NCBI GenBank assembly: GCA_027008885.1
Contig: JALVDQ010000194.1
Location: forward strand, 1-11,481
Source: Thiotrichaceae bacterium
GTDB taxonomy: Bacteria > Pseudomonadota > Gammaproteobacteria > Thiotrichales > Thiotrichaceae
Direction: 5' to 3'
Length of the DNA stretch: 11,481 bases
Position numbers and translations under genes: made by a program. Below the pieces are notes generated by a model. That model did no database searches. It was not told where the DNA came from and was given only the letters and a program-made list of their open reading frames with translations. Below, one piece after another: positions 1,133-8,803 of this stretch. Numbering within the stretch: the stretch's first letter is position 1; each line of letters begins with the position of its first letter.

Positions 1133-1152
1133 CGTTCGTAACGCCGGAGCAT

Positions 1153-1220
1153 GTAGGGTTGGTGGAGTTTACGCAACCAACCAGATTCGGTTGGTTTCGC
1201 ATGGCTGCCACCAACCCTAC
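1153..1220. repeat. Nested palindromic repeat, GTAGGGTTGG type
   Basis: The outer arms GTAGGGTTGGTGG (1153-1165) and CCACCAACCCTAC (1208-1220) pair perfectly over 13 bp. An inner pair, AACCAACC (1175-1182) and GGTTGGTT (1189-1196), forms a second hairpin inside. This nested layout resembles the dispersed GTAGGTTGGGT-type intergenic repeats I recall from many proteobacteria and cyanobacteria. No protein-coding content is credible here: overlapping frames are open on both strands only because the repeat is palindromic. Confidence 0.75.
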
Positions 1221-1238
1221 GCAACTCAACACTACTAC

Positions 1239-1271
1239 AAAAATATATAAAAAACAGGGGGGATGGGTATT
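1239..1271 (+). repeat. 33-bp dispersed repeat, copy A
   Basis: This AT-rich then G-rich stretch (AAAAATATAT..., then CAGGGGGGATGGGTATT) is matched base for base, as reverse complement, at 8771-8803. The identity stops sharply at both ends. It ends 13 bp before the left boundary of the proposed integron cassette. No internal palindrome or coding potential is visible, and its function is unknown. Confidence 0.9.
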
Positions 1272-1303
1272 GTCTTGAGCGGTGTTATACGAAGGAGACG
1301 AAT

Positions 1304-1342
1304 ATGCTAAATCAGGCATTTTATACGAAAGCAGTACATTGA
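1304..1342 (+). CDS. Possible 12-residue leader ORF of the cassette
   Basis: An ATG at 1304 sits 6 nt after a strong AAGGAG (1292-1297), immediately inside the left cassette boundary. It encodes MLNQAFYTKAVH and a TGA. The ribosome-binding site is better than that of the antitoxin itself. It could be a translated leader that delivers ribosomes into the cassette, a remnant of a lost gene start, or chance. The word TTATACGAA occurs both at the cassette edge (1285-1293) and within this ORF (1321-1329). Confidence 0.3.
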   Translation: MLNQAFYTKAVH

Positions 1343-1344
1343 TA

Positions 1345-1386
1345 TTGACTTCTTACTTGCTTTAAGGTTACACTTCATAATATAAA
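1345..1386 (+). promoter_or_regulatory. Candidate cassette promoter for the toxin-antitoxin pair
   Basis: The stretch contains TTGACT (1345-1350), close to a -35 hexamer, and -10-like hexamers CATAAT (1376-1381) and TATAAA (1381-1386). The spacing from TTGACT to CATAAT (25 bp) is too long. TTACTT (1353-1358) with CATAAT gives 17 bp but a poor -35. A promoter here is likely from the AT-rich context and from toxin-antitoxin biology, but its exact elements are not settled. Confidence 0.35.
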
Positions 1387-1410
1387 CAATTGAAATTGAG
1401 GTCTAATAAA

Positions 1411-1653
1411 ATGGAAGCTACAGCAAAGGATCTAAGATTCCACTCAACAGAATTATTAAATACAGTAAAAAGAGGCGAGGAAGTTACTATAACTTTTCGT
1501 GGAAAGCCATGCGCAAAACTTGTGCCCATTGAGGAAGATGAAGAATTAATAGAAAAAAACGAATTATTCGGAATATGGGAAAATAATAAAGAAACTGAGA
1601 AAGTTGATAATTATGTAAGAAACCTTAGAAAAGGTCGATTCAGTGCTAGTTGA
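1411..1653 (+). CDS. Phd/YefM-family antitoxin (VapB-type partner)
   Basis: This 80-residue protein begins MEATAKDLRFHSTELL and contains VTITFRGKPCAKLVPI (about residues 27-42). That is the usual N-terminal DNA-binding fold of Phd/YefM antitoxins, with the G-K-P-x-A-x-L-V/I-P signature. The C-terminal half is acidic and charged, the part that typically wraps the toxin. I chose the ATG at 1411 because GAGG (1398-1401) lies 9 nt upstream; a TTG at 1390 in the same frame would add seven residues with no support. The family neutralises the partner toxin and usually represses its own promoter. The stop codon lies inside the start of the toxin gene, so the two are probably coupled in translation. 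Confidence 0.9.
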   Translation: MEATAKDLRFHSTELLNTVKRGEEVTITFRGKPCAKLVPIEEDEELIEKNELFGIWENNKETEKVDNYVRNLRKGRFSAS

Positions 1654-2023
1654 TACAGATGTTATCATTTGGTACATGCGTGGAAATATAAAAGCATATG
1701 AAATACTAAATAAAAACAAAGGCTTTAAAATTTCAGTTGTAACATATATGGAGCTTGTTCAGGGAATGAGGAATAAACAAGAACTAACACTTCTTCGTAA
1801 AGCTTTGAAAAACTGGGAAACTAAAATAATTTACATTACCGAAGAAATATCAAGCAAAGCGATGTTTTATGTTGAACAACATTACCTTAGTCATTCGGTA
1901 CAGTTAGCTGATGCATTAATTGGAGCTACTGCGGTAGCACATGGTGAGTTTTTAGTATCAGGTAACGTAAAACATTATAAGATAGTAAAAGAAATTAACT
2001 TAACTAAGTTTGTGCCAGAGTAA
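1643..2023 (+). CDS. vapC: PIN-domain ribonuclease toxin, VapC family
   Basis: This 126-residue protein starts LVDTDVIIWYMRGN, the hallmark PIN-domain N-terminus with metal-binding Asp4 and Asp6. Further acidic residues expected at the active site are Glu37 (YMELVQG) and Asp90 in LADALIGATA. Near the C-terminus SGNVKHYK (106-113) matches the usual (T/S)xN-x-K-x-(F/Y) segment. PIN toxins of the VapC type are Mg-dependent RNases that cut specific tRNAs or rRNA. The start is GTG at 1643, overlapping the antitoxin gene by 11 nt; this is the only start that keeps the conserved LVDTD strand. The coding sequence looks intact, with no missing catalytic residue. Base composition is AT-rich compared with era and galU. 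Confidence 0.92.
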   Translation: MLVDTDVIIWYMRGNIKAYEILNKNKGFKISVVTYMELVQGMRNKQELTLLRKALKNWETKIIYITEEISSKAMFYVEQHYLSHSVQLADALIGATAVAHGEFLVSGNVKHYKIVKEINLTKFVPE

Positions 2024-2061
2024 GCCGCATCGTGTTTATCACCACCAGAAATTTAACAAAC

Positions 2062-2176
2062 GTATAACAAATTGTTCAAATTGACAGTTAACACAGCCCA
2101 CTTTTTGTGCGTTCGCTTCGCTCATTTCCGCACAAAAAGTGGGCTGTGTTAACTGCAATTTAGCAAGGCGTTATGC
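2062..2176 (+). other. attC recombination site of an integron cassette
   Basis: The outer boxes are R'' GTATAAC (2062-2068) and R' GTTATGC (2170-2176). Inside, 2085-2111 pairs perfectly with 2129-2155 (27 bp), leaving a terminal loop TTCGCTTCGCTCATTTC (2112-2128). Outside the stem, AAATTG (2078-2083) pairs with CAATTT (2156-2161) after one extra top-strand base, A2084. A second extra base, C2077, is followed by further pairing (T2076-A2162, G2074-C2164, T2073-A2165, T2072-A2166). On the bottom strand, the strand IntI recombines, these extrahelical bases are T and G, the known pair that sets attC polarity. An unpaired spacer separates the L-type and R-type boxes. This anatomy argues against a plain terminator, and no U-tract follows the stem. 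Confidence 0.9.
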
Positions 2177-2277
2177 AGCCTCTTGAAAAAATACTTTCCA
2201 AATATCTGAAAGAATGATGATCTTGCTGATCTTGTATGAGAGAATCTGCCTAAGTTTTAGCTAAGGTTATATTTTTT

Positions 2278-8770: not shown

Positions 8771-8803
8771 AATACCCATCCCCCCTGTTTTTTATATATT
8801 TTT
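8771..8803 (-). repeat. 33-bp dispersed repeat, copy B (inverted)
   Basis: This is an exact reverse complement of 1239-1271. It sits in the 172-bp gap between the exporter and the LolA-like gene, 21 bp after the exporter stop. On the + strand it reads from a C-run into a T/A-rich stretch, but no GC stem precedes the T-run, so it is not an obvious terminator. A small palindrome CAGCTT-A-AAGCTG (8809-8821) follows within 6 bp. Confidence 0.9.

Follow-up and report, generated by a model that had tools for sequence, protein, structure and literature searches.

A Putative Toxin-Antitoxin Gene Cassette With an Integron attC Site Outside the Visible Array, Upstream of galU

The attC Site and the Genes Between era and galU

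In the window, by which we mean the whole stretch of DNA analysed (11,481 bases), era occupies positions 75-1037 and galU starts at 2278. Between them, on the forward strand, lie two overlapping genes followed by an attC site. The first gene (1411-1653) encodes a Phd/YefM-family antitoxin of 80 amino acids from the ATG at 1411 (PF02604 at 5.4e-9, 36.1 bits against a cut-off of 29.8), and the second (1643-2023), with a GTG start, a PIN-domain, VapC-like toxin of 126 amino acids (PF01850 at 8.4e-10, 39.7 bits against a cut-off of 23.6). Since the genes overlap and both products score above their family cut-offs, the pair is classed as a putative type II toxin-antitoxin (TA) system of the Phd/YefM-PIN kind. 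An earlier note on this DNA had placed an attC site between era and galU; its flanking genes were correct, but the TA operon between era and the attC was missed. The pair is presumed to be active and to have a promoter; a promoter scan of 1038-2300 gave six signals compared with 4.0 in shuffled sequence (s.d. 2.2), which is not above background.

The attC site (2062-2176, forward strand) has the order R''-L''-hairpin-L'-R', and its R'' box begins 38 bp after the stop codon of the PIN gene. Direct reading gives R'' as GTATAAC (2062-2068, also found by the covariance model R1, see below) and R' as GTTATGC (2170-2176), and between them a perfect 27-bp inverted repeat (2085-2155) whose arms (2085-2111 and 2129-2155) are 100% complementary and enclose 17 nt. 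Boxes and stem are as previously described, and the earlier note had given 12 nt of this loop. The R' consensus is GTTRRRY. Each box is one base away from strict consensus, and the two behave as core boxes with 6-7 pairs in the folds; for R'', RYYYAAC is given as the consensus (PMC12901181). The two bases that had been called extra are both seen in the folds of either strand, A2084 as a one-base bulge and C2077 as part of an asymmetric internal loop, so that the bottom-strand attC carries the extrahelical bases of L''/L' in a bulge opposite A2084 and in an asymmetric loop that includes C2077. The folding energy is -39.6 kcal/mol for the bottom strand (z = -10.1, not equalled in any of 200 shuffles), and the top strand folds about equally well (-40.0 kcal/mol, z = -10.3).

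R1 was built from seven related attC sites, with the window's own attC left out. Run with filters off, it matched 2062-2176 at 121.4 bits (E = 3.7e-32); the covariance-model check that the earlier note had proposed was thereby passed, R1 being a purpose-built model and not that of IntegronFinder or HattCI. R1 gave two other rows in the window: one, of 56.6 bits, is the same attC read on the reverse strand, and the other, of 9.9 bits (E = 0.91), is a repeat at 1151-1222. The 11,481 bases hold one R1 site and one motif site, and neither model nor motif found a second attC. By its structure, 2062-2176 is confirmed as a genuine attC, that is, an integron recombination site. Recombination by IntI at this place is predicted, with the cut in R' presumably falling between G2170 and T2171 and the bases from 2171 on coming from the target. 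A search of Rfam gave a single weak microRNA match (21.4 against a gathering score of 70), which was rejected.

The long and perfect stem would also suit a generic hairpin, such as a terminator or a MITE or REP-like repeat, that is no recombination site. Such an origin is extremely improbable in view of the R and L boxes, the bulged base, the R1 score and the cassette borders described below. Moreover, the site resembles the attC sites beside intI and in arrays, and no terminator-like site was found in 1038-2300.

Borders of the Cassette and Its Flanking DNA

The left end of a true cassette was formerly joined to the cassette's own R'' arm, so its left 7-mer is expected to complement R''. At 1284-1290 the window reads GTTATAC, the exact reverse complement of R'' and the sole forward-strand GTTATAC in the 11,481 bases. 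Between this border and the G of R', the attC terminates an apparently complete gene cassette of 886 bp, beginning with TTATAC (about 1285-2170, forward strand) and carrying the Phd/YefM-PIN pair. Its left end is uncertain by 36 bp, as a second TTATACGAA at 1321 matches the left end of the copy in the congener G009. Of 32 possible GTTRNRY words, 2 are present in 1038-1410, and G|TTATACGAA is also found at the GCG|TT junctions of L259, L260 and L262. A left border exactly reverse-complementary to R'' is likewise present in three other cassettes of the same genome (the second and third on contig C153 and the first on C93); no exact left border was found for the cassette on C128.

A wider recount started from 67 distinct R1 sites, of which 49 were testable (R'' ending in AAC and at least 900 bp upstream), while 8 had too little upstream DNA and 10 an R'' not ending in AAC. 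The exact reverse complement of R'' occurred within 1400 bp in 38 of the 49, compared with a mean of 10.1 for permuted R'' words (s.d. 2.5, maximum 19 in 2000 permutations), and within 4000 bp in 44. Six of the 11 misses at 1400 bp (L165, L010, L269, L249, L261, L246, L253, L262, L260, L271 and L248) have the word farther out.

The 36 bp at 1285-1320 resemble the start of another cassette lying before the second TTATACGAA. Because the left end in G009 matches 1321 and not 1285, these bases may derive from the start of a different cassette, and a fused cassette is therefore possible. This, together with the repeats that come within 13 bp of the left border and with the TA genes of G009, which adjoin an attI core on a contig lacking intI, would be consistent with a former longer array (a CALIN) that was reduced to its last cassette by a deletion or through the repeats on the left. 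We consider that history unlikely, given that the window offers no second attC to either search and that its left border complements R'' exactly.

The right junction is native. DNA upstream of galU (2176-2277, forward strand) aligns with the galU upstream DNA of two congeners, from 2176 in G009 (score 77, compared with 23-29 for control stretches) and from 2171 in G010 (score 46, compared with 23-27). With the predicted crossover at 2170/2171 and an alignment from 2176, native DNA begins at most six bases from the crossover. Only G009 and G010 entered this pairwise test; the other congeners were placed in one multiple alignment, in which the DNA upstream of galU varies and shows little similarity beyond the promoter region.

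The left side has a different history. No era homologue was found at the galU loci of the relatives looked at (1.5-kb flanks), and in the 10 congener loci listed an ORF reading as recO lies 3' of era, with RecO domains confirmed by Pfam for L053. As era is followed by recO in congeners, the era side appears to be a rearrangement of the window's genome, partly of dispersed repeats. A repeat at 1152-1271 (forward strand) stops 13 bp before the cassette, and a query with 1038-1290 gave 92 matches in the same genome, several pieces per place. The repeat is present in tens of places in the genome, and its terminal 33-nt piece occurs inverted at 8771-8803. Joining the left flank to the alignment of galU upstream DNA added six score units, a gain equalled by 132 of 1000 shuffles and thus no clear homology, and no relative with an empty site was found. 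The left flank was also tried as an attI core and rejected as evidence, since its match of 9 of 19 positions is reached by 4% of positions.

The left flank is draft sequence rich in repeats and may therefore contain a rearrangement or a misjoin. In an assembly artefact, the repeated attC or the dispersed repeat would have served the assembler as a bridge between an array cassette and DNA of galU or era. The genome is a draft in 494 contigs, and the terminal attC of contig C85 matches the second one on C153 without a difference over 118 nt, a sign of repeat-driven breaks. We nevertheless hold such an artefact to be very unlikely: even a chimera formed through the attC would put one immediately upstream of galU, a search of the C153, C128 and C93 pieces did not reveal the TA genes, and the attC of the window differs by at least 4% from the other copies compared.

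The Integron of the Same Genome and Lone Sites in the Family

No integrase was found on the window's contig, as the earlier note had said; the same genome (G000, 2.97 Mb) does, however, have an intI on another contig (C93:1707-2645; 416 bits in a profile search, cut-off 265). An AbiH cassette adjoins it, and array pieces on C153 carry a RelE/HTH pair and a PD-(D/E)XK protein. The attC of the window is 95% identical to the third attC on C153 and shares 94% identity over 85 nt with the cut attC that adjoins the intI cassette on C93. R1 sites in this genome comprise two on C153, that of the window, one on C128, one at the contig end of C85 and, in part, one on C93; the first C153 attC (L009:394-526) was found by eye and missed by R1. 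Across the 2.97 Mb, DNA search gave four attC-like places and the model six, all beside cassette-type genes or a contig end. The many gene-unlinked copies that the earlier note had named as evidence of a generic dispersed repeat were thus not seen, and its reading of the site as an integron attC is upheld by the structure and by the lack of any intI or second attC found on the contig. The recombination machinery was probably supplied by this resident integron.

The integrase (L011:1158-2654 on C93) has 498 amino acids and an N-terminal extension with a second SAM-like match; two Phage_int_SAM_4 stretches and a second, weak TIGR02249 match are seen. The long form is not unique, because in many of the best 80 relatives listed the alignment begins near residue 53. 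Among the matches listed, the closest named integrase is from a metagenome-assembled genome called Cocleimonas sp. (60%). The host is probably a gammaproteobacterium akin to Thiotrichaceae. The C85-end attC (L181:6614-6733) is identical over 118 nt to the second attC of C153 (L009:1641-1760), which may reflect a duplicated cassette, strain variation or an assembly branch. The C128 attC (L010:2713-2828) has a UPF0175/DUF3368 pair upstream and an R' that begins with A rather than G. At least two attC subtypes coexist both in this genome and in G025 (L009:3010-3124, L009:1641-1760 and L165).

Among 63 genomes of the family, R1 matched 21 (E <= 1e-4) and intI was above the cut-off in 35. A motif screen of the best 80 listed IntI loci gave 16 matches, compared with 0 in the shuffled control. 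Forty stretches were considered for lone sites, and a single site in 8.9-12 kb was found in five: the window, L166 (G025:C45), L261 (G025:C40), L254 (G017:C34, where the site is 2.7 kb from the contig end) and L259 (G022, a two-contig genome in which no intI was found at E <= 1e-60). Left out although single were L252 and L268 (12 kb, no proper boxes) and L264 and L265 (intI close), as were stretches near contig ends or on short pieces (L245-L247, L249, L250, L253, L255, L257, L258 and L276); the remaining stretches hold arrays or several R1 matches. Also excluded from the lone sites were many single R1 matches of the family scan situated close to a contig end. The G025:C45 cassette has a border with one mismatch and an R'' that ends in AAT, and its counterpart in G309 has about 22 bp where G025 has about 1.57 kb. 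Only 1.1 kb of that length belongs to the cassette, so the comparison is supportive as an empty site without being a clean one.

The Same TA Genes in Relatives and Comparison With Known Systems

A search for the PIN toxin in 63 genomes of the order gave, besides its own copy, G009:C129 (93%) and G025:C40 (95%), and in both relatives the TA genes have cassette-like settings. G025 belongs to another genus; on its contig C40 the TA block shares 89.5% identity with window 1321-2069 and is flanked on one side by clpB and a small ORF and on the other by a DUF4143 ATPase gene. The attC behind it shares R'' with that of the window and is otherwise quite different, the two copies being alike up to and including R'' (GTATAACA) and diverging just after. 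No second R1 match was found there in 11.2 kb, and the exact left border is absent, the nearest word being GTTATAA with one mismatch. In the congener G009, the TA block directly follows GAAACTGTCTAATAAACTG, which is identical to the 19 nt before the crossover of the window genome's inferred attI; 15 of these 19 nt recur upstream of intI in G313. This 19-nt attI core (L280:1038-1056 on G009:C129), immediately before the TA pair, may be an integron remnant or a copied attI. No R1 match was found on the 13.4-kb contig, which ends 332 bp past the PIN stop codon, nor any relative of the window genome's intI.

R1 found no attC in 19 other loci with PIN relatives, and a motif screen found one (L156) in 15 examined, so the Phd/YefM-PIN family appears to occur mostly outside recognisable cassettes. 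As R1 misses some attC sites (L156), a lone site means one for which no further match was found. Relatives of the PIN toxin at 90-98% are also carried by metagenome contigs. Nine pattern matches for the PIN protein in viral contigs yielded no confirmed relative.

In integrons, a cassette with a folded attC bottom strand is normally inserted at attI by the integrase. The best reading of the feature described here is a natural SALIN or out-of-array cassette, that is, one cassette outside the visible array, and most probably it is a single Phd/YefM-PIN cassette that IntI inserted at a non-attI site before galU in an attG-type event. The integrase, as the presumed agent, would excise the cassette or receive it as a circle, the attC bottom strand would fold for recombination, and the cassette would most likely have entered at a G|TT upstream of galU. 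Both the age and the direction of this move are presumed. Addiction to the TA pair may then contribute to the retention of the inserted cassette.

The case offers a natural, well-bounded out-of-array cassette whose genome has retained both a matching integrase and parts of an array, with the same TA genes traceable at other sites in two relatives. The point of most interest is that the same TA pair has different attC bodies in two genera, array-type in the window and quite different in G025. This raises the idea, an unlikely one, that cassette genes can change their attC. If so, crossover or template switching at R'' would be a route by which genes gain or trade attC sites, which would bear on how cassettes arise, and lone cassettes would be stages into or out of arrays. 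This TA cassette family could serve the study of cassettes leaving arrays and of the matching of genes with attC sites.

Loot et al. are said to have described attG-mediated insertion of integron cassettes into genomes, in Nature Microbiology in 2024. Insertion at attG sites is also cited in several papers (PMC11023631, PMC12901181, PMC12444791). A literature search on solitary attC sites with an integron found no paper. On integrons of this family, the papers listed included a sul4 study that mentions integrons and a family name and includes a Leucothrix genome it calls doubtful (PMC12772301), and a paper that pairs "integron" with a family name (PMC11897494); as listed, neither deals with lone cassettes, which is no proof of absence.

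The terms SALIN, for a single attC lacking integron-integrase, and CALIN, for a cluster of attC sites, are in use (PMC12690207, PMC9024848). With one attC and no integrase nearby, on a contig that extends only 1.3 kb to the left of the cassette, the window corresponds to a SALIN. Single-attC CALINs can be true positives and are unreported by default in IntegronFinder 2, so such cassettes are easily missed (PMC9024848). As in these elements, one attC and a cassette gene stand without an intI alongside. Unlike there, the genome has an intI elsewhere, along with array pieces whose attC sites are of this type, and hence a source can be named. The attG insertions share with the window a single cassette, a place that is neither attI nor attC, and G|TT at the crossover; the data there are experimental and from E. 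coli (PMC12444791), whereas here a natural draft genome was read from sequence alone. TA pairs are likewise cargo in sedentary chromosomal integrons, with 19 TA cassettes in that of V. cholerae (PMC11023631). A promoter of their own is reported for those cassettes (PMC11023631), while here the promoter scan did no better than shuffles, and the TA cassette of the window lies instead outside the visible array.
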